DNA of 64,000 bases from Proteiniphilum propionicum. Its GTDB lineage: Bacteria > Bacteroidota > Bacteroidia > Bacteroidales > Dysgonomonadaceae. The DNA lies in the NCBI RefSeq assembly GCF_022267555.1, contig NZ_CP073586.1, forward strand, positions 3,018,501-3,082,500, read 5' to 3'. Both the position numbers and the translations under genes were made by a program. Below, piece by piece: positions 9,738 through 36,891 of this stretch. The notes under the pieces were generated by a model, which ran no database searches, was not told the DNA's origin, and saw only the letters and a program-made list of their open reading frames with translations. Numbering within the stretch: position 1 is the first letter of the stretch; every line of letters begins with the position of its first letter.

Positions 9738-9765
9738 AATGCAGCCTAGCGACTGCATTTTTTTA
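9738..9765 (+). terminator. Second terminator-like hairpin
   Basis: The stem AATGCAG / CTGCATT (9738-9744, 9753-9759) is followed by a run of seven T on the plus strand. It abuts the stop codon of the DUF4465 gene on the other strand. Confidence 0.55.
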
Positions 9766-10509
9766 TTCACTTATAACCGCTGTAATATCATCAATACAAA
9801 AATAAGAAGGAGTATTCATTCCCCAGTCTCCGTTATCGGTGGAGGAGAGTTCAAAATGAACACTTTTCACTTCTCCAAGCCCCATGAGATCAACCCATTT
9901 CCATTGATTAAGCAGTTCTGACTTGCCGTTACGGAAATCGGCAAGGTAAAACTCCACTGCCTGCGTGTCATTCCCCGCTTTATCTTTTCCCTTGATCTTG
10001 AGTTTAAACCAGTCGCCTTCCCCGAATTTTTTAGCAAATTGGTCCCCATTTTTCATGGAGAAATAGGCGTAGGTACTGTTGGTAACATACATTCCCTTAA
10101 CCCTGCAGGAAGTGCCTCCTTTGAAAGAAATTACAGCAGGATTATAATCTGTACTGTTTGCCGTAAGGTAAACTTTTCCTGTATATGCTTTTCCGGTGAT
10201 GGCACTATTGTTAGCATAACTTGCAGTTGTGACATCACTTTTATTAGTGTACATGAATCCACTCCAGGAAGAATCGGAAAAATAGTTGTCAAAAACGAAA
10301 AGATTATCCGCACCGCTGAACTGGTTTTTCCATATGGGACCATAATCGCCGGGAATTTCGGTTCCCGACTTGTCTCCGGTCCACTCGGTTTCGACTCCAG
10401 TTAGCTTGTTTTCCAGATCAACAACTTTTGTAACGGTTACATCATCATTCTCGCATGAAACCATCAGAAGAGAGAAAAGAGAAATTAAATAAAACAGGTT
10501 TTTTTTCAT
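9763..10509 (-). CDS. DUF4465-type lipoprotein, last gene of first B12 uptake operon
   Basis: 248 aa. A lipoprotein signal peptide with lipobox LLMVSC (Cys19) is followed by acidic residues (ENDD), which in Bacteroidetes favours export to the cell surface. The remainder looks like a beta-sandwich: aromatic-rich strands, WSGFMYTN, and the C-terminal YFCIDDITAVI typical of DUF4465 proteins. The molecular role is unknown. It sits last after btuB, btuG and another surface lipoprotein downstream of a cobalamin riboswitch, so an accessory part in corrinoid capture is a reasonable inference. About 200 bases separate it from the gene before; that gap shows no clear promoter or terminator. Confidence 0.75.
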   Translation of the reverse strand: MKKNLFYLISLFSLLMVSCENDDVTVTKVVDLENKLTGVETEWTGDKSGTEIPGDYGPIWKNQFSGADNLFVFDNYFSDSSWSGFMYTNKSDVTTASYANNSAITGKAYTGKVYLTANSTDYNPAVISFKGGTSCRVKGMYVTNSTYAYFSMKNGDQFAKKFGEGDWFKLKIKGKDKAGNDTQAVEFYLADFRNGKSELLNQWKWVDLMGLGEVKSVHFELSSTDNGDWGMNTPSYFCIDDITAVISE

Positions 10510-10712
10510 TTTGATACAATTAATTGGTTCAACTTTAGCATGTGTTGCTCTTAGAGCTTAATAGTTCTACATTGTATGTTTAGCTATACACCCATCGCAT
10601 TAACACATGCGAAAGTTCAGTTATTTGATTATTTGACATATAAAAATATACTGTATTTCCTGTAATGATTACTTAGTTGAACAGGCATTACAATTGTTTG
10701 GCATATTAAAAT

Positions 10713-11666
10713 CTACTGTTGTTGGAGCAGGTGCAGATCAATTACTCCACTTACTTCGGTGGAAGACTCTCCAATGCGTCCATTAAATTGGTTCACACCC
10801 GTATATATTTTAACAAAATCTATTCCGTCAAGATGTACTTTCTTACGGTTTGTATCTACAGCCCAGTCTATATCGAACTGAGCTCCTGAGCTGTTGTTAG
10901 GCATATTGTCGGCATAACCCCAGTCGTAAGAGTGCAAGGTGTAAGTATCGTTATCAACAGTGTTGTTGTCGGGAAGCCTTGTCCCGATAAACTGCATTTT
11001 ATCACTGTCTATCCATTGCGGGTAATAACTTTGCTGGTGAAAGGTAGTCTTATAAACATAACCCTCGCCATTTACGTTAGCGGTCCATTTGATATAGGCT
11101 GCATCAGTCACGTAAAAGAGCGATGGGTGAAGGACAGGAGTTTTATTTTCATCGGGCCTGTAGTAAGTGATTTCATAATTGTGTATGGTTTTCTCATTGT
11201 CATGTTCGCTTCCGGCAAGTTCGTACCATGGGTCATCGGGTTTCCCGTTTTTGTTGATGTCGGCAGATACCATCACAATACCCGGTTCACTATTGCCGGC
11301 GTAAGCATTTCCCAGTACTGCAAAATCGGCTTTACCAGGCACATTTTCAATGGTATGATCAAACCCCACTACTACATAACCGCCAAACCCGCCCAGCGAT
11401 ATCAGCCCACCTCTGTCACCGGCGATTTTTTCTTCGGCTTTTTTCGCCATTGTTTCGAATGTATCGCCTTCCTTATATTCCGGCAGTTTGTTCACAAACT
11501 GGCCCGGAGCAGGCATATACTCAAACACGCGGGTGAGATAGGGAGAGTGTTTTATTCCGGGGCCTTCTCCCTCATCAGTCACATCTCCTTCACTGCTGCA
11601 ACCCACTGGCAGAAGAATAAAGAAAAGGAGAAAGAAAAATTGAAAAAGCTGCCTTTGTTTTGTCAT
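10713..11666 (-). CDS. Surface lipoprotein of B12 uptake operon 1
   Basis: 317 aa. Signal peptide with lipobox ending at Cys23 (LLPVGC), then acidic residues. The mature part carries a domain seen again in the protein encoded at 31621-33339. Shared stretches include YMPAPGQFVN, LGGFGGYVVVGFDH, EPGIV and the loop DINKNGKPDDPWYEL, whose Asp/Asn spacing looks like a calcium-binding loop. The domain is typical of Bacteroidetes proteins annotated only as cell surface protein. Its place directly after btuG in a riboswitch-controlled operon suggests a cobalamin-binding or receptor-accessory role, perhaps like BtuH. That is inference; I cannot assign the BtuH family. Confidence 0.72.
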   Translation of the reverse strand: MTKQRQLFQFFFLLFFILLPVGCSSEGDVTDEGEGPGIKHSPYLTRVFEYMPAPGQFVNKLPEYKEGDTFETMAKKAEEKIAGDRGGLISLGGFGGYVVVGFDHTIENVPGKADFAVLGNAYAGNSEPGIVMVSADINKNGKPDDPWYELAGSEHDNEKTIHNYEITYYRPDENKTPVLHPSLFYVTDAAYIKWTANVNGEGYVYKTTFHQQSYYPQWIDSDKMQFIGTRLPDNNTVDNDTYTLHSYDWGYADNMPNNSSGAQFDIDWAVDTNRKKVHLDGIDFVKIYTGVNQFNGRIGESSTEVSGVIDLHLLQQQ

Positions 11667-11752
11667 AAGAATAATTTGATTTTTTTATTATTGCATATAA
11701 ACCTTTGCCATTCCTAATATCTATAAGGATGGAGCAATTAGTTCGATTTTGT

Positions 11753-12916
11753 TTATCTTCTCTTGGGGAGTAAAGCAAAATGCGCGGGAATATCTCCCGT
11801 TTGTATGCTCCATCGCTTTTTCCCTTTCCGGTTGAAACAATACAGAAATCCCGGATTAATATAATCTCCCGCATCAGTTATGTAGATATCTTTTGTTTCG
11901 GGATGTACCATTATACCGTAGGGAGTCTCAAATTGCCTCTCAGTACCGTCTGTAATGAAATGCGTATTTATAACTTCACGGGTAGTTGTATTAATGATGG
12001 TGAAATTGAACTTATTCACATTTGATGCTGCTCTCTCTTCAATACCAAAAAGATACAGTGAATCACCATCTATCTGAAAATTATTGACAGAAAGTAAAAC
12101 AGAATCGCTTACTATCTGCTTTTGCCGGTCGATAAAAAACAACCTGGAAGAATTGCCCCGATGATCACCACGTGAGGTGACCCACAGGTTACCTCTTTTA
12201 TCTGCTTTGATCAGGTGAAGATTGCAGCTCACATCAATACGTTTTTCTTCTTTAAATGTCGCAATATCTATCACAGAAACGGTTCTCTCATAGTTTGCAC
12301 TTTTTCCTGCTCCCTTGTAACCGCCGGAATTTGCTACATAAATCTTACCGTGAGAAATGGCAATTCCATCAGGCTGATATCCTACAACACATCTTTCTTC
12401 AACTTGCAGCGTCGCTGTATCAACCCTAGCCACATAGCCTCTTTGTTTATATTCGGGATCTATCTCGATAGGGCCTGCATAAGATGTAACGTAAGCATAC
12501 CTTTCGTAGAAGGCAATGTACCTGCAGTTGGGAATATCCGCCTGCCCGATTCTTTTTGCCGTATGTGCATCCATCACCTCAATTTTATTGGATGCGTTAA
12601 TGACAGCGTACAAGCGGTTACCATAAAGCTTAATGTCATTACCAACATCACCCAGCTCTTTTGGAACGGATGGATTCTGTACGGCGTAGATATTACGATT
12701 GTAGCTTCCGGAAACAAAGTCGTAATAATCTAGCGTTGCTTTGTTACTCCCCATATTTCCCTCATTCAACAGGTAAAAGCCGGCAAACCGGCCGGCTCCT
12801 GAGGCCCCGGGATCGGTAACGACAGCCTCAGAGAGCAGCAGCTCCACATCTTTTCGGCAAGAAGCAACAAGCATCGCAAAAACCAAAAGTGATAGTATGA
12901 TAATCTGTTTCTTCAT
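11753..12916 (-). CDS. btuG: BtuG-like surface cobalamin-binding beta-propeller lipoprotein
   Basis: 387 aa. Lipobox LVASC at Cys20, followed by RKDVE, compatible with surface export. The mature protein is a DUF5074/YncE-like seven-bladed beta-propeller: repeated strands such as NRLYAVINASNKIEVMDA, HGKIYVANSGGY, ISVID-type blades and DIYITDAGDYINPGFLYCFN. In gut Bacteroides, BtuG proteins of this family sit on the BtuB receptor and bind cobalamin very tightly. The start overlaps the btuB stop by 4 nt (ATGA), showing translational coupling. A paralogue lies at 33375-34511. Confidence 0.85.
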   Translation of the reverse strand: MKKQIIILSLLVFAMLVASCRKDVELLLSEAVVTDPGASGAGRFAGFYLLNEGNMGSNKATLDYYDFVSGSYNRNIYAVQNPSVPKELGDVGNDIKLYGNRLYAVINASNKIEVMDAHTAKRIGQADIPNCRYIAFYERYAYVTSYAGPIEIDPEYKQRGYVARVDTATLQVEERCVVGYQPDGIAISHGKIYVANSGGYKGAGKSANYERTVSVIDIATFKEEKRIDVSCNLHLIKADKRGNLWVTSRGDHRGNSSRLFFIDRQKQIVSDSVLLSVNNFQIDGDSLYLFGIEERAASNVNKFNFTIINTTTREVINTHFITDGTERQFETPYGIMVHPETKDIYITDAGDYINPGFLYCFNRKGKKRWSIQTGDIPAHFALLPKRR

Positions 12917-14955
12917 ATTTCCACTGTCAGTGTAATTCTATAGTTTCTTTTTGGCATTGGGTAGTTCAGAACCACCTCATAATCCTGACTGAACATATTA
13001 TTCACTTCTAAAGAGAGTTTTCCGTTGAATTGTTTCCGGGTGAATGAGCGGGCCAGCGATAAGTCGCTCGTGTACCAGGGTTGTTCATAATTCTCACGTA
13101 TATTGGCTGAGGAACGGTAACGCTCGCCTACATAGATAAAACTGTAGTTCAGATGCCACAGGCGATGACTAAGAGTAGCAACCACAGAACCGCTATGCCA
13201 CGGGATGTAAGCAATTTGTCCGCCATAAGTAATCTTTTCCAGCTCCTTGTTTGTCCGGCGTGTAAGATCCTGTGCCTGCTGCCAGGTATAGTTAAGCTTT
13301 ATGTTCAGGAGCCATTCTTTATTGAGCATTGAAACCGTTGAAACAGCAATATCTAACCCTTTTATCTCCACATTCCCCACATTCATCATCATCCAGCGGT
13401 ACATTCCATTTCCTTTAGGTACCGCGATAATCTTGTTGGTAACCAGGTTGAAATAGCCATCGGCCTGAATATCCCAATGCCGGATAATACCGTATGTGTA
13501 GCTTTTGGTATACTGTACGCCAATATTGTATTGACGGGTATCTTCAGGTTCGAGGAAAATGTCCCCGATATCTGTATAAAAGAGATCGTTGAATGTAGGC
13601 ATCCGGAATATATGTTTATAGAAAGCCCTGAGATTCAAGTCATGCAGAAAGTAAGGTTTGTATGAGACAAACAAGGCAGGGGTAAACCGCTGTATGTTTG
13701 GGCCGTTGTCCGGTGCTGAGGTTTCTGTTTCTGTATGGCCACTGATAAATGTGCCTAAAATGCTTCCCTGCATCTTCACCTTTCCAAGATCAACAGCAGT
13801 AGCAGCAGCAACCAGGTAAGTGCAACGCGAAGGCTGCACAAAACCATCGAGCTCGGAGCGTAGACCGTTCCATTGTAAATCGGCAGCCAGTGAAATATCC
13901 CAGTTCTTCAGAGGTTTATATTTGTTTACCAGAGAGAGATATGCCTCCTGCTGAGTGAAGGTGTTGTCGATATATATCAGAGTGGTATCGGGATTCAGGT
14001 AACGCATATGGTCATTAGCGTATTTTCCATTTATCAGTATATCATATTTCGATGATACCGATTTTTGGAAAGTCCCCTGAGTGAAGAAATTACGGTCCCA
14101 TTGCCTTTGAGAGCGTTTCCATACGTTATTGACAATAGCACCGGGTATACCTCTTTCAGAAGTGTAGAAATAAGTTTTCAGGTTCCAGTTACCTCCCGGA
14201 ACAAAACCATGCAGTCCTGTTTCCAGTCGCCATGCATCAACATCACCGTTTTGCCGTATAGCTGTGGTATCGTAAACTGCTTCTTTTGTGACAGGGTGAA
14301 CACGCTTGTACCGGTACTCGTATTTACCGTTTGCATGCACCCACTCCGCATTGAAATAGCCGGCGAGCGCCGATGCAATTTTTTGTTCCCATAATAACGA
14401 TGGGTTCAAAAGCCCGAACGATCCGGTACGTAAAATTCCTCTCAGATTGTACTGTTTTCCTTTTTTAAAGCGCGGGTAGCGTGTACGGAGATAGATGCTT
14501 CCTGATGAGCCGAAATCTTTGGCGGATTGAAAAATCTCACTTTTCTGTCCATTATAAAGTGTGATCGATTCAATATTATCAAGTGAGAATTTTCCGAGAT
14601 CTATCTGTCCGTTTTGTGCATTCCCGAGCTGAATGCCATCGTAAAATACGCCCATATGGTTTGTACCCATACTACGTATATCTACTGTCTTTAATCCACC
14701 GATGCCGCCATAGTCTTTTATCTGTACACCCGAAAAATAGCGGATGGCATCGGCAACAGACAGGCTGCTTAATCCTTTCAGTTCCTCTCCCGAAAGCTTT
14801 TGTGCAGGAATGATTTCGCGAGAGGACTTAGCGGTCACAATAATTTCAGGCAGTTGTTGCAGGCTGTCAGTATTATACTGAGCATAGATAGGGCTATGAA
14901 TCACCAATAAGGCAGCAAGAAAACAAAAAAGCGCTATTTTTATAAATGAGTACAT
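12913..14955 (-). CDS. btuB: TonB-dependent cobalamin receptor (BtuB), operon 1
   Basis: 680 aa outer-membrane receptor for corrinoid uptake. A signal peptide ends near IYAQ (about residue 26). A TonB-box-like LPEIIVTAKSS precedes the plug domain (about 45-160; LSVADAIRYFSGVQIKDYGG, VFYDGIQLGNAQNGQID). The 22-strand barrel fills the rest and ends in a C-terminal aromatic-alternating strand (NYRITLTVEI). No carboxypeptidase-like N-terminal extension is present, unlike SusC proteins. Specificity is inferred from the cobalamin riboswitch about 130 nt upstream and the btuG neighbour. The ATG at 14955 is preceded by TTCGGTAA, also found before btuB of operon 2. Confidence 0.9.
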   Translation of the reverse strand: MYSFIKIALFCFLAALLVIHSPIYAQYNTDSLQQLPEIIVTAKSSREIIPAQKLSGEELKGLSSLSVADAIRYFSGVQIKDYGGIGGLKTVDIRSMGTNHMGVFYDGIQLGNAQNGQIDLGKFSLDNIESITLYNGQKSEIFQSAKDFGSSGSIYLRTRYPRFKKGKQYNLRGILRTGSFGLLNPSLLWEQKIASALAGYFNAEWVHANGKYEYRYKRVHPVTKEAVYDTTAIRQNGDVDAWRLETGLHGFVPGGNWNLKTYFYTSERGIPGAIVNNVWKRSQRQWDRNFFTQGTFQKSVSSKYDILINGKYANDHMRYLNPDTTLIYIDNTFTQQEAYLSLVNKYKPLKNWDISLAADLQWNGLRSELDGFVQPSRCTYLVAAATAVDLGKVKMQGSILGTFISGHTETETSAPDNGPNIQRFTPALFVSYKPYFLHDLNLRAFYKHIFRMPTFNDLFYTDIGDIFLEPEDTRQYNIGVQYTKSYTYGIIRHWDIQADGYFNLVTNKIIAVPKGNGMYRWMMMNVGNVEIKGLDIAVSTVSMLNKEWLLNIKLNYTWQQAQDLTRRTNKELEKITYGGQIAYIPWHSGSVVATLSHRLWHLNYSFIYVGERYRSSANIRENYEQPWYTSDLSLARSFTRKQFNGKLSLEVNNMFSQDYEVVLNYPMPKRNYRITLTVEI

Positions 14956-15280: not shown

Positions 15281-15285
15281 CGCGA

Positions 15286-15442: not shown

Positions 15443-15904
15443 CTATGACTGCATGCGGAAGGTAATATCGATAATATCCTCTTTACTGATTCGATACAAC
15501 CTCTGATTGGTCGTTTTTTTGCTTAACCCTCCCAGCGCTTCCAGATAGGGGCCTGTTTTCACATAATCAAAACGACCGGCAGCCATAGGATGCAGGTTGC
15601 TGTTTCCTGAATACCAGGCCGTTTTGAGCCATTCTCCCCAATTCATCCGGATATAGTATGCCAGCCGGCATACTTCTTCGGCATGAGCATCGCCCCCCAT
15701 AAAACAGATGCAGGTGATTGAATGCTCATAGAGCTGCAGCAGCCGCGAAATGGCCTCTTCGTTCAGTTCTTCACCTATGTCTTGCTGCAGGTGGGGACTG
15801 TGACACCCCTTGCAGCGGTGTGGACAACCCGACAGGTTGACGGCTAACGTCACCTCATCGGGAATTTCCTGAAAAACGATATCATAGTCTGTGTATTTAA
15901 GCAT
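15443..15904 (-). CDS. nrdG: Anaerobic ribonucleotide reductase activating protein
   Basis: 153 aa radical-SAM activase that installs the glycyl radical on NrdD. The [4Fe-4S] cysteines are C27, C31 and C34 in CPHRCKGC. CICFMGGDA is the GGE-like SAM-binding motif with a modified third residue. The C-terminal half contains the ETGPY-like KTGPYLE stretch typical of NrdG. It lies 100 nt after nrdD on the same strand, so the two are co-transcribed from the riboswitch-controlled promoter at 18531. Confidence 0.94.
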   Translation of the reverse strand: MLKYTDYDIVFQEIPDEVTLAVNLSGCPHRCKGCHSPHLQQDIGEELNEEAISRLLQLYEHSITCICFMGGDAHAEEVCRLAYYIRMNWGEWLKTAWYSGNSNLHPMAAGRFDYVKTGPYLEALGGLSKKTTNQRLYRISKEDIIDITFRMQS

Positions 15905-16004: not shown

Positions 16005-18134
16005 TTAATAAATAATAGGTTCCTCTTTAGTCTTCTCTGTTATGTCCGGCTTTCCGTAATGTCTTCTTTCCGCTTCCGCCTGCCGAGCAGCCGAGAAGTT
16101 GCTCACTCTCTTCATATAACCGATAATGCGTGTGAGGTAATCCACATTCCGGGAGCCACACTGGGGGCATTCCTTCAGGTAACGCTTGTCGATGGCACCA
16201 CAATCGTTGCATACAGTGTTTGGAATGTTGAAGGTGAAATAGTTGCAGCCCTCGTGGGCTGCTACACGCAACAGCTGTCGGTATTGTGCTTTTGAGAGGT
16301 GTTCCTCCAGGTTCAGGTGGAGTGCCGATCCGCCCGTCAAATGTTCAATATAGTTACGTCCGTGCAGTCGGAACTTGTCGATCACATTTAGCGATGGATC
16401 TTCCACCCGGTAAAAATAGCTATTGTAGCAGTCGCGCGGCACGAAATAGCCGTCCTCCCTGTCCCATTTGGCATGTTTTACGCCTACATTTTCGGCAGGG
16501 ATCATCTCACAATTGAACATCAGTTCTTTAGATCGGTATTTTTTGTTGTATTGCTCAATAATTCCGAGCACCTCCTGCACGAAGGCCTTATATTGAGGAT
16601 TGTGATTGATGGCTATCCCCAGCGATTCGGCTGCTTCCACTAATCCATTTACGCCGATTGTAAGGTATTGGCGTCCGAGGTTGATGTATCCAGCGTCGAA
16701 CAATGGCAGCATCCCTTTTTGTTGGAACATCTTCAGGTTTTCATTATAGGCGATCTGCACCTTGTGTGTCAAATCCACCACCTCTTCAAGGAAAGTACCA
16801 TAGGGTTGTCCCGTACGTTTTGCAAACTGAACACAGCGGTTAAGGTTGATGGTGAGCACGCTTTTGGAACCGGTGGATACTCCACCCGCACCTAAGGTGT
16901 AGCTGAACCCGTTGTCCTGAATCTCGTTGCGCAGGCGGCAGCAGCTCGATAACGAGTCGGCATTGTCGCTCATATAGGTAAAGAAAGAGTGTCCTTCAGC
17001 ATACATTTCGGCGGTAAAATCGGCATATTCTGTATCAATCACATCCTCTTCCCGCGAGAGCAATGCCATCGTTTCCACCGGAAAAGTAAGTACGGTTTTG
17101 GTGCGTTCCTTGTTAAACCATTTCATAAAGCGTTTCTGCAACCAACTGAGCGATTCCCATACGGGGCGTGAGCCATCGGGGAACCGGAACTCGCCGAACA
17201 GGCTTTCGAAGTAGTACCTGTCGTAATAGGAAATGTTCCAGAAGACAGCCTGGAAATTGCGTGCTCCTGTGGGCTGGTTGATGGAGTAGACTATCTGTTC
17301 GAAACAGTCGGTAATTACCTTGTCGAGTGTACGCCTTCGTCTTGACAGATCTACTACCTCTGTGGTATGTAAAAAATAGTTGTCGCCATACTCTTTCCGG
17401 ATAAAATAATCAAGGTACATCAGAAACTCAGGAGTGGCGCAGGCACCACTAAGCATGCTCGATACAATGAATACCATATTGATGAATCCGCCGCAGAACG
17501 ATTTCAGGTTGGTGGGTGGGGTGGAGTTGCCCCCGACAGACAGGGTGCCGTTCAGCAGCCAGGGATACATGGTAATGCTGGCGCAGTAGTTGGCCAGGCT
17601 GGTTTCGTCGTTTTTATAAATGAAATGTTCTTTCAGCATGCCGATGTATTTGTCGGCAAGCTCCTTCCCGTACATCTCCTTCATCCTGTCTGTTATCATC
17701 TTCCTATTCAGGTCAATGAAGTTCTTTTTGGGTAGCTCGCCGATGAGTGTGGCAATGTTTTTCTTCTCTACATTGGCATTGGAATCGAACTTGCTTCCCG
17801 TGGCAGCATTCTGAGCGTTGCAATAGCTCATCAGGAAGTTCATCTTGCTCTGGATCTCACGTGTTTCGGTATGTTTCTGCCGGTAGAGCATGTATGATTT
17901 TGCAACAGCAAAGTATCTTTCCCGCATCAATGCTGTCTCCACCTGGTTCTGGATCTCTTCCACAGTCATTCCGTCAGAAATATGAAGGTGGGCAAGGAGA
18001 GTAGTGAAGTCCTCTTCTGTAGCAAACGAACCTACCGACAAAAATGCTTTCGCAATGGCATTTTCAATTTTTTTGAGGGAAAATAGCACCCGTTTCCCGT
18101 CGCGTTTCACAATCTGAATTTCATTGTTACCCAT
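16005..18134 (-). CDS. nrdD: Anaerobic (class III) ribonucleoside-triphosphate reductase
   Basis: 709 aa, normal length. Makes deoxyribonucleotides without oxygen and without B12. An N-terminal ATP-cone (about 5-95; IVKRDGKRVLFSLKKIENAI) gives allosteric control. The C-terminus holds the zinc site (CNDC and CPQC) and the glycyl-radical site RIIGYM, with the radical Gly at 672. The ATG at 18134 gives MGNNEIQIVKRDGKR. A cobalamin riboswitch precedes it, so the enzyme is made when B12 is scarce. This implies that a B12-dependent class II reductase is used otherwise; none is in the window. Confidence 0.96.
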   Translation of the reverse strand: MGNNEIQIVKRDGKRVLFSLKKIENAIAKAFLSVGSFATEEDFTTLLAHLHISDGMTVEEIQNQVETALMRERYFAVAKSYMLYRQKHTETREIQSKMNFLMSYCNAQNAATGSKFDSNANVEKKNIATLIGELPKKNFIDLNRKMITDRMKEMYGKELADKYIGMLKEHFIYKNDETSLANYCASITMYPWLLNGTLSVGGNSTPPTNLKSFCGGFINMVFIVSSMLSGACATPEFLMYLDYFIRKEYGDNYFLHTTEVVDLSRRRRTLDKVITDCFEQIVYSINQPTGARNFQAVFWNISYYDRYYFESLFGEFRFPDGSRPVWESLSWLQKRFMKWFNKERTKTVLTFPVETMALLSREEDVIDTEYADFTAEMYAEGHSFFTYMSDNADSLSSCCRLRNEIQDNGFSYTLGAGGVSTGSKSVLTINLNRCVQFAKRTGQPYGTFLEEVVDLTHKVQIAYNENLKMFQQKGMLPLFDAGYINLGRQYLTIGVNGLVEAAESLGIAINHNPQYKAFVQEVLGIIEQYNKKYRSKELMFNCEMIPAENVGVKHAKWDREDGYFVPRDCYNSYFYRVEDPSLNVIDKFRLHGRNYIEHLTGGSALHLNLEEHLSKAQYRQLLRVAAHEGCNYFTFNIPNTVCNDCGAIDKRYLKECPQCGSRNVDYLTRIIGYMKRVSNFSAARQAEAERRHYGKPDITEKTKEEPIIY

Positions 18135-21069: not shown

Positions 21070-21106
21070 GGGGCTGTTCCAAAAGGACAGCTCCTTTTTT
21101 AATTTT

Positions 21107-26624: not shown

Positions 26625-26895
26625 AATCAATTTTGTTTAGTTAATCACATAATTAAAACACTCCGCTAAAATTAGCTAATTTCCTGCCACGCCATGACTC
26701 AAACATACTTGGCTTTGACCGCACTATTTAACGCAAATAAATTGCTTCGCTTGTGTTTAAGCGCATAGATATTTGAAGTAGTGAGGCGAAATTACTAAAT
26801 GATCGGAAAAGAAACAAAGGCATATCACGCATTTCTACTTTCAAAAAACGGCCCAATGGATGGATTGATGAAATATAATGAGAAATAGGCTTGTC

Positions 26896-27486: not shown

Positions 27487-27675
27487 ATTATTTGTGAGTT
27501 TTGGCTGTTGGTGTAGGCAATCAGCCATCGGCTTTGCGCGAACCTATTGAGCCGTTGGTTTAAATTAGTTGTTTGACGAATACTTGTTTTTCAATATCCT
27601 GGTTTGTGAAAAAACCGCTTACCAATGTGAGATATTCGGGGAGCACACCGTTGCAGCTCCACTTCATTTTAATAA

Positions 27676-29607
27676 CTACGGTTTCACATATCGCCCGGCT
27701 TTCAGGTCTTCGAAAGTGGGATTGTACGCATTATCGTGAACGGTATTGCCGTTCCATTTCTTTTCGGTGATAGATCCTGATTCTACCGCTTTTTTCAGTC
27801 CGGAAAAGTCGGTCAGAAACTTACAAAACTTGATCTCTAATTTTTCCACCGAAGTGAGCGCTGCGAGAAAACTTAAATCGGTTAGTTTCTCATTTTGCCA
27901 ACCCGACCAGGATCCGCCAACTTCTAAATTCCCCACCGATGTAAGTTTAGGCAGATAAACGGCCTCTAAAAATTTTCCAAACAAACTTAGTTTGCCTATG
28001 ACTTTTTCCAAATTTGGGAACGACATAGAAGCCAACTCGTTGGATGAAATGGATATCTCACCAGCCTCCAGTAGGTTCTCTCCCGAAACAGCGGTTACAT
28101 TACTATACGAGGATAAGCTGTTGCTTATTTTCTTAAGAGATGCAGGCAATACTATTTCTGTAATTCCCGGTGCATTTTGTACTCGGAAATTTTCACACTC
28201 TTCCAACCCTGTTATCAGGGGAAGTTGCGTTATGGAAGGATCGGATGCAAAATTAAGTTCGAGTGTTTTTTGAATCAGCTTAGGCAGTTTAATTTTGGTA
28301 ACATCTGCAAGAGATCCGACAAACTCCACCGATCCGTTTATGGTAACCCCCGATAAATCTATTTCACCCTTATGCGGTATTTTATAAATCCGTATATTTC
28401 CAATTAATTTTAAATGCGATAATAACGGGTCGATAGAAGTGATTTTGGGGCATTCCGAAATTCCCATATATTGGTTAACTTCCTCAAGCATGGTTGTTGA
28501 AATGTTCTCAAGGTTCGGACAATTACTGATAGTTATCCTGTCATTAACCGATTTTAAAAGGGCGATTTTTAAGTCCTTTAACTCTTCGCACCTTTCCACA
28601 TTTATTTTATTGGCCGTTTTCATCAATCCCATATTTAAGAGGGACACCATTTTTAGATTGGCAATATTGACGTCTCCGGCGTTTTCCAATTTTTCCAAAT
28701 CAATCGTTTCTAAATTCAACAGATTTTTTATATCTAATTTTTTACAACTCTGCAGGTTTGGAAAGGATATCTCTTTAATCGTTGACACGTCCACTTCCGA
28801 CCATCCCTCTTTTCCGGAGAAAGACATTTGCCCGGCCCTTTCTAATCTAGGGGCGGAAAATTCTGCCAGTTGGGTAGATTTAACCGTTATGTTTCCAGCT
28901 GAAGTAAGAGCATCAAACGAAATTTTGGAGATGTTGTTGGAACGAGAGATAAAATCTTCAAACAGATATTGCAGGTTGGGCAAAACAATCTCTTTAAGTT
29001 GCTTTGGCTCGCCGTTGACCATAATTCCGCCTACCGATCTCAAATTTTGCAGCGGTTTCAAGTCTCCTTTAAAGGTGGGGTTCACAATCAATTTGTATTT
29101 TATCTCGTTCAGCAGATTCAGAGCATCGATATTGGATATGGAGTCCGTCCCTTTTTCAGCGCCGATAATTAGATTACCGTTTATGATATTGATTTTTTTC
29201 TTTGCAAACACATCCACCTCCTCATCGGTTTGTAAAAAGACGTTATCGCCCAAAACCACATCCTCTTTCAATATTTTTACCTTATAGTCGCGTTTCGTTC
29301 CGTTATACGATGTTACCGTTAGTCTTTGTTCGCCGCTCCACTCTTTTATCGTCTCGGGTTTGGGATCAATCGTCGCTAACTCGCTGAGCATATATTTTGC
29401 CGTAAGTTTGTCCATCTCTAAATTCTTCGGCATTGATACCTCTATGACATTGTCTGTGATTTTTCCCTCATATACCATTTTGTCCGCACTCTGCAGTGAA
29501 AATTCCAAAAAGTAGTTATCCAACCCTTCGAAAGGCTCTTTGGTACATCCGGAAAAAAGCAAAGTGCCTATAATGACAGCCCCAAAACTCTGTTTTATTG
29601 TTTTCAT
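27676..29607 (-). CDS. Repeat-rich surface lipoprotein B of B12 operon 2
   Basis: 643 aa. Lipobox LLFSGC (Cys21) then TKE. Residues about 30-115 form a DUF5018-like Ig-type domain (YEGKITDNVIEVSMPKNLE, RLTVTSYNGTKRDYKVKIL). The rest is a long run of irregular leucine-rich or L-domain-like units of about 20-25 residues, with LKEIVLPNLQYL, LEEVNQYMGISECPKITSI and similar strands, predicted to form an extended solenoid. The C-terminus ends YNPTFEDLKAGRYVK, shared with the paralogue just upstream. It lies 17 nt after that gene and well inside the riboswitch-led btuB operon. No enzyme motif was seen; a binding or scaffold role at the cell surface is inferred. Confidence 0.7.
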   Translation of the reverse strand: MKTIKQSFGAVIIGTLLFSGCTKEPFEGLDNYFLEFSLQSADKMVYEGKITDNVIEVSMPKNLEMDKLTAKYMLSELATIDPKPETIKEWSGEQRLTVTSYNGTKRDYKVKILKEDVVLGDNVFLQTDEEVDVFAKKKINIINGNLIIGAEKGTDSISNIDALNLLNEIKYKLIVNPTFKGDLKPLQNLRSVGGIMVNGEPKQLKEIVLPNLQYLFEDFISRSNNISKISFDALTSAGNITVKSTQLAEFSAPRLERAGQMSFSGKEGWSEVDVSTIKEISFPNLQSCKKLDIKNLLNLETIDLEKLENAGDVNIANLKMVSLLNMGLMKTANKINVERCEELKDLKIALLKSVNDRITISNCPNLENISTTMLEEVNQYMGISECPKITSIDPLLSHLKLIGNIRIYKIPHKGEIDLSGVTINGSVEFVGSLADVTKIKLPKLIQKTLELNFASDPSITQLPLITGLEECENFRVQNAPGITEIVLPASLKKISNSLSSYSNVTAVSGENLLEAGEISISSNELASMSFPNLEKVIGKLSLFGKFLEAVYLPKLTSVGNLEVGGSWSGWQNEKLTDLSFLAALTSVEKLEIKFCKFLTDFSGLKKAVESGSITEKKWNGNTVHDNAYNPTFEDLKAGRYVKP

Positions 29608-29623
29608 CTTTTTATTCTGTTTT

Positions 29624-31603
29624 TTATTGTTTTACGTAGTGTCCGGCCTGTAAATCTTGAAAAGTCGGATTATAGCCGTTATTGGCAATACTGAAATTCC
29701 TGTTCCAAATCTCTTTTGTTATTGAGCCGTTGGTGATTGCTTTTTTTAAGAATGAGTAATCATTAAAATTACTGATATTTTTAAGTGTCAGAAATTCAAT
29801 TTTTTCAAGAGAAGATAGCCCATTCAGATGGGTCAACTTCTCGTTTTTATCTTTCCAGTCACTTATTGATAGGGTATTTATCTCTTGCAGCATCGGACAT
29901 TCGATTGTTTTCAAAGAGAACATTTGAACGCAATTGAGTTTATTTAACTTAGTTAGCTTTGCAAAAGATATGCTTTCCCAATGTTTACTATTTCTATCCT
30001 CTCTAATCCATAATTCTTTGGCTTCTTTTAGGTCGGGAGCCGAAAAACTTTTCAGATTCATACTGTTTTTGATAAATATTGAACCCGATTCCAATCCCGT
30101 TAAAACCCAATCTTGAGGCTCTGACAGGATTAGGTTACTGATTTCAATTTTTTGTTCTACCTCTTTTAAACCGGATATCCGGATCGGTTTTTTACGAGGA
30201 GCATTCGTGTCCCCTCCAACGTATAACTCTTTCATTACCTCCGGCACAATAATCTCTTCCAAGTTGTTGCACTGATCCAACAGAACTTGTTCCACGCCCG
30301 TTTTGCTGACATCCACAACTCCTTCGCAAAGCACGAAAGTCATTGAGAGTTCAGAGAGATTAGTCAGGTTTCTAAAAATCGGTGATATGTCTTTTAGTGA
30401 TGGGAGGTTGTTAGTAATCAATTTACCGTCAATACTGTTGATGTTAGCCATATCTTCAACAGAAGTTATTGGTATGGAACGGAGTTCCAAATTTCCCTTT
30501 ACTGTTTTTAAGTTTTTGAGAGATATATTTTTAAGATTATTATTGTTGACGATAAACAGGTCACCCGTTTCTGTTAATGAGGGAAAGAGGGCTGAAGTGA
30601 TTTTTGAATTATTGATGTTCAGGTTGCCTCCTACCCGGGTTAAATTATTCAACTTTAACCCAACCAGCTCGGGCCCTTTAATGATTAAATCTCCGCGAAT
30701 TTCCTTCAATTTCGAGAGGTCCAAGGTTGTGAGCGATGGCACTTCCTGCAAAATAATGGAGTTGAGTGTCTCTTCCAGCTCTCTTAGTTTTAAAATGCCG
30801 AGGGAGCTGCCGCTTATCTTTATATCTCCTCCTCGCTTAAGTATCGGCAACTGTAAATCCGTGAGCTTGTTGGAGGAGATGAACAGCTTACTGTCTACTG
30901 TCTCCAGCATGGGTAGAACTATTTGTTTTACACTGTGGCTGTTCACAAAGAGGTCCTGTCCAACCTTTTTTAAATTCTTTAACGTGATATCCGAAAGATA
31001 CTTATTCGCATTAACGATAATAGACCCGGTCTCCTCAAGGTTTCTCAGCCCGGAGAGGTCTTTTCCTTTGTATGTGGAATTGATAATCAGCTTATATCCT
31101 ACCTTTGTCACGTACGTTAACGCGTCTATATTACTGATGGAGTCCGTTCCCGTTTCATTTCCAATAATCAGATCACCCTCTACGGCTGTGATGTTTTTTT
31201 CGGCGAATGCTTTCACGTCGCCGTCGGTTGCCAATAAAACGGTTCCCTCCGCTTGCCCGAGTTGCCTCTTGATATGAATCACATAGGTTCGTTTCACGCC
31301 GTTGTATGAAAAGACGTTGAACACCTGCTCATCGTTCCAGTTGGTTATTTTTTCGGGTTCGGGAAGGATAGTGGCATTTTCACTGAGAGTGTATGCGACT
31401 TTGGCGTTGTTCAGATCGGTCTCCACCGGCAGTGATATGATTATCTCACTGTTTTTCACCGCCCCTTTATACTCTTTCCCTCCGGTTGTTAAAGAGAAGG
31501 ATAGCAAACGGTTATCCTCACCGTTAAAAGGGCTTTCGGTAGCACATGATAGGAGCATGACCGCAAAAAAACCCGCAAGTAATCCAATATATGTTTTTTT
31601 CAT
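29624..31603 (-). CDS. Repeat-rich surface lipoprotein A of B12 operon 2
   Basis: 659 aa, clear paralogue of the next gene in the operon. Lipobox MLLSC (Cys20), then a DUF5018-like domain (YKGAVKNSEIIISLPVETD, VFNVFSYNGVKRTYVIHIK). The segment TDSISNIDAL is identical in both. The solenoid-like repeats use phrases such as LRNLEETGSIIVNANKYLSD and TRVGGNLNINNSKITSALFP, resembling receptor-L-domain units. The tail is YNPTFQDLQAGHYVK. Expression should follow the cobalamin riboswitch at 36690. I do not know of a described cobalamin role for this family. Confidence 0.7.
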   Translation of the reverse strand: MKKTYIGLLAGFFAVMLLSCATESPFNGEDNRLLSFSLTTGGKEYKGAVKNSEIIISLPVETDLNNAKVAYTLSENATILPEPEKITNWNDEQVFNVFSYNGVKRTYVIHIKRQLGQAEGTVLLATDGDVKAFAEKNITAVEGDLIIGNETGTDSISNIDALTYVTKVGYKLIINSTYKGKDLSGLRNLEETGSIIVNANKYLSDITLKNLKKVGQDLFVNSHSVKQIVLPMLETVDSKLFISSNKLTDLQLPILKRGGDIKISGSSLGILKLRELEETLNSIILQEVPSLTTLDLSKLKEIRGDLIIKGPELVGLKLNNLTRVGGNLNINNSKITSALFPSLTETGDLFIVNNNNLKNISLKNLKTVKGNLELRSIPITSVEDMANINSIDGKLITNNLPSLKDISPIFRNLTNLSELSMTFVLCEGVVDVSKTGVEQVLLDQCNNLEEIIVPEVMKELYVGGDTNAPRKKPIRISGLKEVEQKIEISNLILSEPQDWVLTGLESGSIFIKNSMNLKSFSAPDLKEAKELWIREDRNSKHWESISFAKLTKLNKLNCVQMFSLKTIECPMLQEINTLSISDWKDKNEKLTHLNGLSSLEKIEFLTLKNISNFNDYSFLKKAITNGSITKEIWNRNFSIANNGYNPTFQDLQAGHYVKQ

Positions 31604-31620: not shown

Positions 31621-33339
31621 TTATTCTACTTGTATATCCACAAACTTGAATACCTCGGTGGAATTTTCACCCAACCAGCCGGCTTTCACGTTCAGCCCTG
31701 TTTGTACTTTAATAAAATCGATATATTCGAGATGAATCTTCTTTCCCTCGAAGGTAATGGCGTTGCTTATTTTAAAGTGGTTCGAGTTTGCCGCCGCCCC
31801 GTAGTTGATGTCGTCCGTAAGGCGGTCGATGGGACTGAAATTATCTGCATATCCCCAATCGAACTCCTTGTTAACCCAATAAGTGCCTTGCCCCGATTCA
31901 TCTTCCGTTCTCGCTTCTAGTCGGGTTCCCCGCAGCGTATATGTGTTCTCCTTTACCCAGTTGGGGTAATAGAACGGTTGTTGGTGAAATCCCAACCAAT
32001 CCACTTTACCTTTTCCTCCCAGATTGTCTATCCACAAGGTGTTGGATTTTGGAATGGCAGGACGAAAGTAAGTCGCCTCGTAATCTTGGATTGTTCCCGG
32101 TTTGCCGGTCTCGCTCCCTTTCAGCTCATACCAGTTGTCGTCGGGCAAACCGTTTCCGTTCTCATCCTGCATCACCCACACGATACCCGGCTCGGAACTT
32201 CCTTTAAAGGAGTTTCCCATAATAGCGAAATCATATCCCGCTGCAGTCGTGGTGCTGAGGTTGGATTGGCTCCTATTTTTGATGCTGTGGTCGAATCCAA
32301 CCACAATATATCCTCCGAATCCCCCTAAGGAGACATACGCCTTCTGCGCTAAACGACCTTCCGCGTATTGGCAGGCCTCCTCCATGGTGTTTGCGGTGTA
32401 CCCCTCGTTCACGAACTGTCCCGGTGCCGGAAGAAATTCATAAACCTTTGTGGAGTAGGGTGAACTTCCCGGTTGGGCGGCCCGGAAATGTTGCTCCGGA
32501 TTTACCGTGTTCACAACGATGGAGGCTTCGCCTTTTTTTCCGCCCTTTGTGGCGACCACTTTTATATTTGTTTTCCCAAGCGCCGAAGGCTTATAGACAT
32601 ATTTGTCAGAAGTTTGTGTTGGGTCTTCTTTCCCATTCACAAACCACTTGAATGTGACATTTTTGGTGCTCGACATATCAGGAATGAGCCGAATGGCTCT
32701 TCCCAACGATGCCGACTGTTCGGGATAAGCGAACGATAGGCTTAACGGCACCTCTTTAACCACCAATATCTGTATGAGGTATTCATCATCACCGTCATCA
32801 TTCTCAGCTTTGAGAATGATGAAAAAGTTTCCCTCTTGTTGTGAGCTGAAGGCATATTCATCAGCCGTGGAAACCTCTTCCCCATCTATCTCCCAGCTTA
32901 ACTTCAAGCCCTCTTTGTTGGCAATCTCCGGCTTGAAAACGTACTCTTCGCCTGTTTCCAAGATAAACCCGTCACCCGTTTCGTCCAAAGAAATGATGGG
33001 TGGAATCAAATCAGTAACTTCAACTTTCACCTCTATTTGCGCTGTCCCGTGTTCGGTGACGGTTTTAAATTTAAGGTAATACTCTCCCGTCTCTCTCTCT
33101 TTAAACAGGATATTTTTTTCTGTTCCTATTATTTTGCCATTAAGAGACCACGAATAAACCGTTCTCTCATCAACATTCTCCACTTTGGGCTAAATAAGCA
33201 CGCTGCGGTTCGGTTTAACGGTAAACGTTGTTTTCTCCATTTCAATTGTTGGCGGAACAACGGTCTCTATATCGTGACATGACGTGAATGCCGCTATCAA
33301 TACCGTAACCCCGATTAAAAAATAACTTCGTCTTTTCAT
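31621..33339 (-). pseudogene. PKD-like surface lipoprotein of B12 operon 2 with premature TAG
   Basis: The full frame would be 572 aa plus stop: ATG 33339, MKRRSYFLIG, lipobox FTSC (Cys21), then a TAG at codon 50 (33190-33192), after which the frame stays open to 31621. Downstream are two or three PKD/Ig-like repeats (YSWSLNGKIIGTE, LSWEIDGEEVSTADEY, VTFKWFVNGKEDP). The C-terminal domain is shared with the lipoprotein at 10713 (LPAPGQFVN, LGGFGGYIVVGFDHSI, loop DENGNGLPDDNWYEL). With the stop, no secreted full-length protein can be made; an internal start at 33183 would lack the signal peptide. The reading after the stop is undamaged, so the mutation is recent or is an error. Confidence 0.85.
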
Positions 33340-33374: not shown

Positions 33375-34511
33375 CTATTCGAATAAAAAGGCAAAATGCC
33401 CGGGAATGTCTCCGGTATCCACTTTCCATTTCAACTTGCCGAATTTGTTGTAGCACAAAAGGGTTCCCGGCGTGACATAATCAATGGCATCGGTCACATA
33501 GATGTCTTTGGTAACGGGATTCACCTTCACTCCGTAGGGAATGACAATATCCTTGTCTGTGCCGTCTTTAATAAAGTTTCTCGACACTATTTCCTTGGTT
33601 TTTATATTCAATATACCGTAGGTAATGGTGTTTTTTTGAGTGTTGTGGCTCCACTCCACGGCATAGATGTAAGCCGAGTCTCCCACTATATCCAAGTTGC
33701 TGACCGCCATCTCGATGGTTTGAGTCACCTCCTCTCTGTCTAAGTCGATCACAAACAGCTTTGACGGTTCATTGTAGTAATCGCCCCTGCTGCTTACTAT
33801 CAACTCATGGTAAGGGGTTTTTCGCAGGCGGTGCAAGTTGATGCCCACATCTATCTTCTTCTCTTCTTTAAATGTCTCCAAATCGATAACCGATACCGTG
33901 CGGTCGTAATTGGGAAACATATACCCTCCCGAGTTGGCAACGTATATCTTGTTGTTTGCGATTACTAACTCTTCGGGCTGGTAGCCTACATTTACCGTAC
34001 GTAGCACCTCAAGTGTTGCGGTATCTATTTCGGCGACATAGCCCACGCGGGCGTTTTGGTCGAATTTTACCGGAGCCACGTAGGACGAGGCATACGCTTT
34101 TCCGTTGTGGAATTTAATATAGCGCACATTGGGTATTTCGATTTTACCGATATGTTTGGCGGTTTTGGCCTCCATCACTTCAATGTAATTGGATACATTG
34201 ATGACCGCATACAGCTTGCTTCCATAAATTTGGATGTCGTTTCCCACATCCCCTAATTCTTTAACAATAAAGGGATTTGCCTCGGCATATATATTTCTGT
34301 GGTATATACCCGTTGCGAAGTCGAAATAATCGAGGCTAGCTTTGTTACTACCCATGTTTCCCTCGTTTAAGAGGTAAAAACCCTTTAAATTTCCCGTATT
34401 CTCTTCACCTAGGCTTGTTTGGGTTTGTGAAGAGTGGAGGATCTCATACTCTTCCCTGCATCCAAGAAGAATCAGCATGAGACTGATAAGTATGAATTTT
34501 TTTCTAGCCAT
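33375..34511 (-). CDS. btuG: BtuG-like surface cobalamin-binding beta-propeller lipoprotein, operon 2
   Basis: 378 aa. Lipobox LILLGC (Cys18), then REEYE. DUF5074/YncE-like propeller closely parallel to the product at 11753, sharing GFYLLNEGNMGSNKA, KELGDVGNDI, LYAVINVSNYIEVM, GYQPEELVIANNKIYVAN and a C-terminal DIPGHFAFL. It starts 6 nt after btuB. By family it should bind cobalamin above the BtuB pore. The two BtuG copies differ over much of their length, so ligand preference may differ. Confidence 0.84.
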   Translation of the reverse strand: MARKKFILISLMLILLGCREEYEILHSSQTQTSLGEENTGNLKGFYLLNEGNMGSNKASLDYFDFATGIYHRNIYAEANPFIVKELGDVGNDIQIYGSKLYAVINVSNYIEVMEAKTAKHIGKIEIPNVRYIKFHNGKAYASSYVAPVKFDQNARVGYVAEIDTATLEVLRTVNVGYQPEELVIANNKIYVANSGGYMFPNYDRTVSVIDLETFKEEKKIDVGINLHRLRKTPYHELIVSSRGDYYNEPSKLFVIDLDREEVTQTIEMAVSNLDIVGDSAYIYAVEWSHNTQKNTITYGILNIKTKEIVSRNFIKDGTDKDIVIPYGVKVNPVTKDIYVTDAIDYVTPGTLLCYNKFGKLKWKVDTGDIPGHFAFLFE

Positions 34512-34517: not shown

Positions 34518-36533
34518 TTATATCATAAAAGTTACAGTTAGACGATAATTTCTTCCCGGCATCGGGTAATTGAGCACCACATCGTAGTGTTGATTCAACA
34601 GGTTGTTAATATCCAAAGCAGCCCGTAAACCTATTCTGCGGCAAACGGCGGAAAAATCTTTCCTGATACTTATATCACTTGTGTACCACGGTTGCATGTG
34701 GCTGTTTACATCGTTGTACTTGGCATTGTATCTCTCTCCGGTGTATATAAAACTGTAATTCACTCCCCAGTTTTTGTAGTCAGCCGAAAAGATGATTGAA
34801 CCGCTATGGCGCGGGATATACACAATTTGGTGTTTATAGTTTTTCGCTTTTTCATCGGTTATGTCCAACGCCTGTTGATAAGTGTAATTCAGTCTCAAGG
34901 AGGCAAACAGCTCATTGATGGGTTCCACAGTCGTGTTTGTGTTTATCTCCATCCCTTTTATTTGCACTTTCCCTAAATTCAGCATCATCCAACGAAACAT
35001 GTTACCTGCAGGAACAGCCACAATTTTATCGTCTATCTCATTATAATACACATCGGTTTGCAGATAGATCGTTTTAAAAACGGACTCTTTAGGCGATACG
35101 GTATAATTGAGACCAATGTTATATTGGGTGGCGTACTCGGGATTTAATACCGAATTTCCGATAAAGGTGTAATACAAGTCGTTAAAAGTGGGTATCCTGA
35201 ATATTTTTTTATAGAAGCTTTGCAGGTATAATTGGTGCTGCTTGAATGGCTTAATGGAGAGGATAACCGCCGGAGTGTAGATGTCCTTTTTGGGAGCGGC
35301 TTTGTTCATCTTCACCTTCTCGCGGACAAATGTTCCGAGCAGGCTTGCCTGGAGGGTGAGCCTATCAAAAGAGAACTCTCCCGCGGCGGCGGTTAAGATT
35401 GTGTGACGCGTGGGGTTGGCGAAATTAACCAAGTTTGCCTTCATCTTATTCAATTGATAGTCGGCGGAGAGATTGAAGCGCAGCCATCTGGCAATTACGA
35501 ACTTGTTAGCCGAGGAGATATAAAAATCGTGCTGCAGGTATTTATTGTCCACATATAACGGGCTTGTCCACTCGTTGTCAATATAACGCGTATAGTCGTT
35601 GGCATATTTCGCGTTTAATTTTAGACTGTATATGTTGTTGAACTTTTTCCTGAATTTGCTTTGAATGAAAAAGTTTTCATCGTGCAAGCGTTGCCCGTGT
35701 TCAAAAACATTCTTCACGATAGGACCGGGCAACCCTCTGTGCGATTTGTAAAAATAGCCGTGCAGATCCCATTCGCCATCGTTCAATGCTTTGTAAAGGG
35801 AGCTCTCTAATCGGCAGGCTTTGATGTCACCGTTTTTTCGGATGGCTACGGTATCGTATGCCACTGTCTTGTCTTCAAACACTCTTTTGTAACGAAAAGG
35901 ATACTTCCCGTGTGAATAAATCCATTCGGCATTAAAGTTAAAGGCATAATCGGCAGGCAGTTTTTGTTCTATCAAGAGCGAGGGGTTGACAAGTCCGAAC
36001 GACCCTGTTTTGAACGTGAAACGCGCATGGGTTCTCTTTCCCCTATCGAATGTGGGGCGTTTGGTCTGTAAATAGATCGTTCCCGCCGACCCGAAGTCTT
36101 TGGCCGGTTGAAAAATATCGCTCTTTTGTCCATTATACAAAGTGACTTGTTCTATATTATCCAATGAGAATTTACCCAAGTCTATTTGTCCGTTTTGTGC
36201 GTTCCCCAACTGAATCCCATCATAGAAAACGCCCATGTGGTTCGTACCCATACTGCGGATATTCACGGTTTTTAATCCCCCCAATCCTCCATAGTCTTTG
36301 ATCTGCACGCCGGAAAAGTAGCGGATGGCATCGGCCACGGAAAAACTGCTTAGCTTTTTCAACTCCTTGCCCGATAGTTTTTGGCCGGGTATCACCTCTT
36401 TGGGAGCATCAGCCGTAACCACCACTTCGGGTAAGTGATGCAAACTGTCGAGTTTATTTTGAGCGAACGTTTTCCCTGCCGCAACCTGAAAACAGATTGC
36501 AGCAAAAAGAGTGGTTTTATTACATATATTCAT
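34518..36533 (-). CDS. btuB: TonB-dependent cobalamin receptor (BtuB), operon 2
   Basis: 671 aa. Signal peptide to about residue 25 (VAAGKTFAQ). The plug domain is nearly identical to the first BtuB over IRSMGTNHMGVFYDGIQLG and LGKFSLDNIE, whereas the barrel is much more divergent. It ends NYRLTVTFMI. The ATG at 36533 is preceded by TTTTCGGTAAG. A hairpin beside the start (CCGAAAG at 36556-36550 with TTTTCGG at 36544-36538 on the minus strand) may take part in riboswitch control. Confidence 0.9.
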   Translation of the reverse strand: MNICNKTTLFAAICFQVAAGKTFAQNKLDSLHHLPEVVVTADAPKEVIPGQKLSGKELKKLSSFSVADAIRYFSGVQIKDYGGLGGLKTVNIRSMGTNHMGVFYDGIQLGNAQNGQIDLGKFSLDNIEQVTLYNGQKSDIFQPAKDFGSAGTIYLQTKRPTFDRGKRTHARFTFKTGSFGLVNPSLLIEQKLPADYAFNFNAEWIYSHGKYPFRYKRVFEDKTVAYDTVAIRKNGDIKACRLESSLYKALNDGEWDLHGYFYKSHRGLPGPIVKNVFEHGQRLHDENFFIQSKFRKKFNNIYSLKLNAKYANDYTRYIDNEWTSPLYVDNKYLQHDFYISSANKFVIARWLRFNLSADYQLNKMKANLVNFANPTRHTILTAAAGEFSFDRLTLQASLLGTFVREKVKMNKAAPKKDIYTPAVILSIKPFKQHQLYLQSFYKKIFRIPTFNDLYYTFIGNSVLNPEYATQYNIGLNYTVSPKESVFKTIYLQTDVYYNEIDDKIVAVPAGNMFRWMMLNLGKVQIKGMEINTNTTVEPINELFASLRLNYTYQQALDITDEKAKNYKHQIVYIPRHSGSIIFSADYKNWGVNYSFIYTGERYNAKYNDVNSHMQPWYTSDISIRKDFSAVCRRIGLRAALDINNLLNQHYDVVLNYPMPGRNYRLTVTFMI

Positions 36534-36689
36534 CTTACCGAAAATTTAGCTTTCGGAAAGTGAGATTTGGAAGTAGAGTTAACACACAATTGAAGTGTTC
36601 TTGTAAACAGAGTGACCCAAATAAAGAAAAACGGCTGTAACGCATGTTTGTTCTTCAAGCTCCAATCCCCGAAAGCTATTAAACGTCAA

Positions 36690-36877
36690 TGAATTTGGCA
36701 GGTCTTCTGACTTACTCCCGTGTCTGAACGCCTTCCCATCCCCAGGGGGACAGTGGCAATTGAGGTATTTGTTCGGCACGTAAGCGGAGCTTACAGCAGC
36801 GGGTCTGTTCAGGATTTTCACCTGATTCCCTTTTCATTGTTCACTTCGAAGCCGTGTGAAGTGAGCAATACCAAAAT
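36690..36877 (-). ncRNA. Cobalamin riboswitch controlling btuB operon 2
   Basis: The minus strand reads AAAAGGGAATCAGGTGAAAA, TCCTGAACAGACCCGCTGCTGTAAG, then the B12-box region CCACTGTCC, GGGAAGGCGTTCAGAC and AGTCAGAAGACCTGCC. Core 36696-36834. Sequence is very close to the first btuB riboswitch. The leader after it carries CTTTCGGGG at 36675-36667, as in operon 1. Confidence 0.93.
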
Positions 36878-36883
36878 TCTATG

Positions 36884-36891
36884 CAAAGTTA
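36884..36891 (-). promoter_or_regulatory. -7 box of btuB operon 2
   Basis: TAACTTTG on the minus strand, about 50 nt before the aptamer core. A -33 box is not evident. Confidence 0.5.

Follow-up and report, generated by a model that had tools for sequence, protein, structure and literature searches.

A proposed cobalamin-responsive locus of a probable B12 scavenger, Proteiniphilum propionicum, apparently built at a lepA-pcnB hotspot and now partly decayed

RESULTS

A B12 locus between lepA and pcnB

The window, the 64,000-nucleotide stretch of Proteiniphilum propionicum DNA that was analysed, contains between lepA and a pcnB-like gene what we interpret, with a probability of about 0.8, as the cobalamin-responsive locus of a B12 scavenger of the Dysgonomonadaceae, built at a genomic hotspot and now partly decayed. 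The parts of such a locus are known; the points that may be new are the fixed hotspot, the mosaic build and the decay. A literature search on Proteiniphilum together with riboswitches found no paper. The flanking features were as follows.

7720..9507, plus strand: lepA, left flank, with LepA_C and GTP_EFTU domains; the same flank is found in relatives
38987..40447, plus strand: pcnB-like nucleotidyltransferase gene, right flank, with PolyA_pol domains; the same flank is found in relatives
37183..38791, minus strand: two lipoprotein-like genes (156 and 273 aa); their position beside pcnB is kept in relatives

An earlier reading of the window, made from the sequence only, had described an uninterrupted minus-strand block. 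From 9763 to 38791 the recognised genes indeed all share the minus strand, and lepA and pcnB, outside the block, lie on the opposite one; plus-strand open reading frames of at least 100 aa also occur inside the block, outside the scope of the domain scan.

Four cobalamin riboswitches and their predicted control

The sequence-only reading had also claimed four cobalamin riboswitches, and the Rfam covariance model RF00174 accepted all four. The matches were all on the minus strand, each spanned model positions 1 to 189 of 189, and they scored 95.4 to 107.6 bits against a gathering cut-off of 31.5. When the model was run on the complete genome, one contig of 3,906,720 bases, it returned the same four only.

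15077-15291, minus strand: cobalamin riboswitch of uptake operon 1; 97.3 bits; platform complement present
18324-18537, minus strand: cobalamin riboswitch of nrdDG; 107.6 bits; platform complement present
23598-23787, minus strand: cobalamin riboswitch of metE; 95.4 bits; CGCG loop and CGCG platform
36680-36890, minus strand: cobalamin riboswitch of uptake operon 2; 103.6 bits; platform complement present

The genes 3' of these riboswitches were, in order of position, btuB1-btuG1-btuH-btuJ; nrdD-nrdG; metE; and btuB2-btuG2-btuH2, two leucine-rich-repeat-like genes and a DUF6580 gene. Binding of cobamides to cobalamin riboswitches represses expression, according to passages of two reports (PMC12751083; PMC8941943). 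Judged by base complementarity, all four riboswitches of the window are followed by a complement of the loop.

The collected loci provided 139 distinct cobalamin boxes for comparison, 124 of them readable by a loop pattern that was CNCG only, other loop types being invisible to the count. The last four loop bases were complemented at most 60 bases past the box in 109 of the 124, compared with 13% for shuffled platforms, and the complement was absent in 15, including the riboswitch of metE in genome G048. The loop was CCCG in 120 cases and CGCG in 4. A CGCG platform accompanied the CGCG loop in three of the four (metE of the window, metE of G012 and one riboswitch in G110) and was lacking at G048 metE; CGCG also occurred, by chance or otherwise, in the platform of 16 of the 120 CCCG-loop riboswitches. 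The matching, two-sided change of loop and platform in the metE-type riboswitches appears to support a loop-platform contact. No clear intrinsic terminator was found in the riboswitch platforms.

Two putative uptake operons

The two sets of uptake genes were assigned as listed here.

12913..14955, minus strand: btuB1, TonB-dependent receptor with a plug domain; TIGR01779, 84.5 bits, under the cut-off
11753..12916, minus strand: btuG1; PF16819
10713..11666, minus strand: btuH-type B12-binding lipoprotein gene of operon 1; PDB 8blw, E 3e-72, and 7biz, E 9e-50
9763..10509, minus strand: btuJ-like DUF4465 lipoprotein gene, last of operon 1; PF14717, 178 bits; PDB 9fct, E 5e-49
34518..36533, minus strand: btuB2, TonB-dependent receptor with barrel and plug domains; TIGR01779, 104 bits, under the cut-off
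33375..34511, minus strand: btuG2; PF16819; PDB 8blw, E 3.5e-45
31621..33339, minus strand: btuH2 with an in-frame stop; the part after the stop matches PDB 7biz, E 3e-106
27676..31603, minus strand: two leucine-rich-repeat-like lipoprotein genes of operon 2; weak LRR and DUF5018 matches; kept in the G010 and G098 operons
26896..27528, minus strand: DUF6580 hydrophobic protein gene, last of operon 2; PF20221, 188 bits

Two gene pairs, each of a receptor and a beta-propeller lipoprotein, were thus assigned to BtuB-BtuG, the BtuB equivalog scores being under the cut-off, and their binding and transport of cobamides is putative. The names BtuG, BtuH and BtuJ rest on matches to solved B12-binding BtuG, BtuH and DUF4465 proteins. 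BtuH-domain matches to the solved chains 8blw and 7biz were obtained for two proteins, of 317 and 520 aa, and DUF4465 proteins are described as binding B12 in passages of PMC13398666 and PMC12751083. The stop in btuH2 (33190-33192) is in frame and lies 49 codons past the likely start; as a single-base event, it could be an assembly error. No BtuFCD was recognised within the block.

The metE gene is split by an IS1182-type element

The methionine synthase gene was broken: from its start at 23428 it runs for 181 codons, is interrupted, and resumes at 21069 to continue down to 19338, so that no single open reading frame holds both MetE domains.

22885..23428, minus strand: metE 5' part, 181 codons; Meth_synt_1
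21070..22884, minus strand: IS1182-family element inside metE; NF033551; 16-bp inverted ends with 2 mismatches
19338..21069, minus strand: metE 3' part; Meth_synt_2, 522.6 bits; 573 codons aligned to G012 metE

The element is 1815 bp long, and its transposase consists of two open reading frames in different frames, the N part scoring 315 bits against a cut-off of 270 and the C part lying in another frame. This is the one full copy in the genome, where two pieces of its ends, 103 and 35 bases long, were also found. At the join, about six codons are missing relative to the intact G012 metE, and no target duplication was seen at the insertion. Compared with G012, both parts of metE gave a dN/dS of about 0.05, with dS near saturation, and internal stops were absent; the low ratio in both parts and the lack of stops fit a recent break. 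Among the 101 family genomes, TIGR01371 matched in four, the gene being intact in G012, G048 and G050 and split in the window genome. The earlier proposal of a metE behind its own B12 riboswitch was right about the riboswitch and the gene, but the gene is split and is not a working isozyme. The leader still looks regulatory even though the gene is broken, since its CGCG loop is matched by a CGCG platform.

Short, folate-independent methionine synthases are known, and the catalytic domain survives complete in the 3' part, which aligns over 573 codons without an internal stop and has the low dN/dS given above. It might be supposed from this that the 3' part still acts as a short methionine synthase and that the strain keeps a B12-free route. 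We consider this very unlikely: the N-terminal domain is severed, the 3' part is separated from the riboswitch leader, and, because dS is near saturation, the low dN/dS mostly records time before the insertion. Loss of the MetE function remains the preferred reading, and it carries a warning for annotation, as a count of domains would label the strain B12-independent for methionine despite the split gene.

nrdDG and its kinship

The class III ribonucleotide reductase was represented by a full-length NrdD and its activase NrdG, both above the curated cut-offs.

16005..18134, minus strand: nrdD, class III ribonucleotide reductase; TIGR02827, 964 bits against a cut-off of 568
15443..15904, minus strand: nrdG; TIGR02826, 160 bits against a cut-off of 152

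In phylogenetic trees, LepA of the window fell within its own genus (97/92), and NrdD grouped with another genus, namely with two Petrimonas-like genomes (support 90/81) and, with a third, at 96/95. A tree in which the window NrdD was constrained to join six NrdD sequences of the genus, chosen after the identities had been seen, was rejected (AU p 0.0002), and the NrdD tree did not gather the genus sequences as one group even when the window sequence was left out. An exchange of nrdDG without its riboswitch was considered and dropped, as the aptamer is about equally alike in the genus member G010 (93% identity) and the Petrimonas-like G089 (92%).

The lepA-pcnB interval as a hotspot in the genus

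The genus sample comprised 25 genomes (G000 to G024, the window genome included), 13 of which had lepA and pcnB on one contig. In all 13, at least one RF00174 match lay between the two genes, and the interval, 4.7 to 43.5 kb long, held 23 of their 30 matches. These totals may be low, because the riboswitch survey used stricter filters that drop weak matches. The seven matches outside the interval included a corrin-synthesis operon in each of G014 and G021. Of the other 12 genomes, seven had a riboswitch on the lepA or the pcnB contig (G002, G004, G005, G007, G009, G012 and G020), three had riboswitches on different contigs only (G001, G018 and G019) and two had no match (G006 and G013). Five more family genomes (G081, G082, G090, G091 and G099) had a riboswitch in the interval, bringing the count to 28 of 40 matches in 18 genomes, although these five were reached through riboswitch neighbourhoods and are not an unbiased sample. 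In G039, which belongs to another family, one contig carries both lepA and pcnB, and the roughly 8 kb that separate them contain no match.

The simplest form of the interval is a lone riboswitch-btuB-btuG operon, seen in G003, G008, G011, G016, G017, G022, G023 and G099 and also in the Petrimonas-like G081, G082 and G090. Beyond this, the larger intervals carry nrdDG, more uptake operons, metE (G012), nrdIAB (by domain check in G014, by size and order in G012 and G021) or a biotin-dependent carboxylase set. Operon 1 of the window was like that of G024 and G091, with 71 to 75% identity for its four proteins, its metE was like that of G012, and its operon 2 was like that of G010. The window locus combines modules that are found separately in congeners, with cargo varying by lineage.

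These comparisons bear on two other accounts of the cluster. If coincidence alone had brought the B12 genes together, the place of each riboswitch operon would be arbitrary, and some features of the relatives would suit this: gene order in the interval is not conserved, nrdDG lies outside it in G081, G090 and G091, and in Dysgonomonas-like single-contig genomes the riboswitches are spread across the chromosome (9 matches in G064, 8 in G075). The riboswitch positions nevertheless make chance clustering hardly credible, as four uniformly placed sites would fall within 21.8 kb of a 3.9-Mb genome with a probability of about 7e-7 and all 13 testable genus genomes have a riboswitch in the interval. 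The earlier idea of an organised B12 locus is upheld by this recurrence, uptake operons and B12-independent isozymes being found there repeatedly; in the comparison of synteny that it proposed, the exact gene order was found in no other genome, and nrdDG of the Petrimonas-like G081 and G090 lies elsewhere.

A single arrival of one mobile island carrying the B12 genes as a unit would be in keeping with the patchy distribution of metE (4 of 101 family genomes) and DUF6580 (18 of 101) and with the insertion element inside the block. We regard it as improbable, mainly on account of mixed nearest kin: the parts of the block differ in their closest relatives and occur separately in congeners, and Petrimonas-like genomes have a lone btuBG operon at this site. 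The protein scan between the flanks recognised no mobile-element gene other than the IS transposase in metE, and the single tRNA of the window (3088-3163) does not border the block. The reading that we prefer is that the locus grew by gain or exchange of separate riboswitch-plus-gene modules and not as one unit, and that it would now be losing some of them.

DUF6580 and the lar genes

The sequence-only reading had suggested that the DUF6580 gene and the lar operon might belong to the locus functionally, and the two fared differently. All 13 full-length DUF6580 copies in the family adjoin B12 uptake genes or directly follow a riboswitch box, some of these neighbours being distant matches only (to BtuG in G077 and to a DUF4465 stretch in G109), which bears out the suggestion for DUF6580. 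The protein looks hydrophobic and has many invariant residues. No PDB relative was found by sequence or profile, solved ECF-type S-components included; the structure model had a pLDDT of 40.5, too low for fold comparison; and a literature search found no paper on DUF6580. DUF6580 represents a candidate membrane family with a tight B12 association.

23844..26630, minus strand: larB, larE and a LarA-type (putative hexonate epimerase) gene; NF033503, TIGR00268 and NF052594, each above its cut-off
18761..19255, minus strand: AspT-type permease gene remnant; PF06826 fragment, profile positions 89-166 of 167

The LarA-type family occurs in 55 of 101 family genomes. Two copies are present in the window's own genome, and the one with the higher score is not in the window. 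Of the 12 other testable genus genomes, two had no match, and in the 10 that have the family it never lies within the interval. The AspT-type permease has an intact-length gene (532 aa) in G008. In G007, decayed ends of larE, larB and the permease gene lie behind riboswitch-DUF6580 in the order of the window, and this shared order indicates that the lar neighbourhood is older than the window genome. A role for lar as functional cargo is disfavoured by the second epimerase copy and by its absence from the interval in the 12 congeners; lar is probably an old passenger.

DISCUSSION

B12 metabolism and a proposed explanation

MetH was found in 98 and NrdJ in 97 of the 101 family genomes, that of the window included in both cases. 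The corrin-synthesis marker CbiC was found in 22 of the 101 and gave no match in the window's own genome. The best reading is that the organism is a B12 scavenger, auxotrophy being judged by this one absent marker.

As expected of such riboswitches, a loop-loop contact would hold down all four transcripts when cobamide is plentiful. At low cobamide, more capture and transport proteins would be made, and NrdDG would be able to cover for NrdJ. The metE response would fail, the leader looking sound but the gene being split, with loss of the MetE backup; for methionine the cell should then depend on MetH supplied with cobamide from outside, or on uptake of methionine itself. A bolder reading, which we consider less likely than not, is that the stretch between lepA and pcnB would serve as a permanent docking site, where B12 modules of a riboswitch and its genes (uptake sets, nrdDG, nrdIAB, metE and perhaps queH) join, pass from one genus to another and drop out, and that DUF6580 would be an inner-membrane protein dedicated to the transport or processing of cobamides and accompanying the uptake modules.

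For bacteria that live in anaerobic communities, the locus brings together where genes lie, how riboswitches control them and how they are lost, all around a single cofactor. As relatives keep different B12 backups at one site, the interval might reveal to a large extent how far each of them depends on B12.

Comparison with known systems

Candidatus Chlorobium antarcticum belongs to a phylum other than that of the window organism. Its cobalamin riboswitches are described before btuB, btuF, metE and nrdD in population-variable regions (PMC8620254), and the window is similar in that genes of these kinds follow riboswitches in variable regions; the parts of that paper drawn on here describe no fixed interval common to species. 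In Bacteroides thetaiotaomicron, cobamide uptake loci 1 to 3 encode BtuB, BtuG, BtuH, BtuJ, BtuK, BtuL and BtuFCD, as set out in passages of PMC12751083 and PMC8941943, and they share with the window riboswitch-led BtuB operons with the surface lipoproteins BtuG, BtuH and the DUF4465 protein BtuJ. They form four operons at three loci, with no metE or nrdDG named among them in those passages. In the window, by contrast, all riboswitches lie in one interval together with isozymes, and DUF6580 is present instead of a recognised BtuFCD.

In genomes that encode both isozymes, the B12-independent one is put under cobalamin-riboswitch control and is repressed by cobalamin, as noted in part of PMC2211319, which cites earlier work. 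The window fits this rule for metE and nrdD, MetH and NrdJ being encoded in the genome, but differs from the systems described there in that metE is broken and its riboswitch remains.

Other genes in the B12 loci of relatives

A set of carboxyltransferase, biotin carrier and biotin carboxylase genes resembling the propionyl-CoA type (locus L116, 2079-5735) recurs in the interval in G007, G010, G012, G015, G021, G024 and G091. The carboxylase-set calls rest on checked domains in G014, on sequence in G007 and G091, and on size only in G010, G012, G015, G021 and G024. A more distant biotin carboxylase set lies among riboswitches in G110.

QueG is the B12-dependent counterpart of QueH, an epoxyqueuosine reductase that is B12 independent and may be one more B12-sparing isozyme. 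Genes for QueH were seen in B12 loci of G048 (L160, 5427-5966), directly 3' of riboswitch-nrdI-nrdA-nrdB as called by size and order; of G012 (L123, 1132-1671), upstream of another riboswitch; of G104 (L238, 3878-4371), after a DUF6580 remnant; and, as a remnant behind riboswitch-DUF6580, of G007 (L172, about 1020-1140). A motif scan saw no QueH in the window.

BtuR-type corrinoid adenosyltransferase genes were present in relatives' B12 operons in L038 (8122-9349), L040 (3559-4074) and L163 (10262-10777), as were DUF2284 genes in L038 (8122-9349) and L159 (10031-10654). Riboswitch-led corrin-synthesis genes comprised a CbiC fusion in L114 (G014) and CobN in L120 (G021), these being the two genus genomes with CbiC matches. 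In G050 (L161, 10491-14163), a cobalamin riboswitch box precedes genes for an iron-type alcohol dehydrogenase, an aldehyde dehydrogenase-like protein and a protein of metallo-beta-lactamase fold. An unusual target was found in G012 (L126, 505-2491), where the box lies ahead of ThrE-type exporter genes and a DUF6064 gene.
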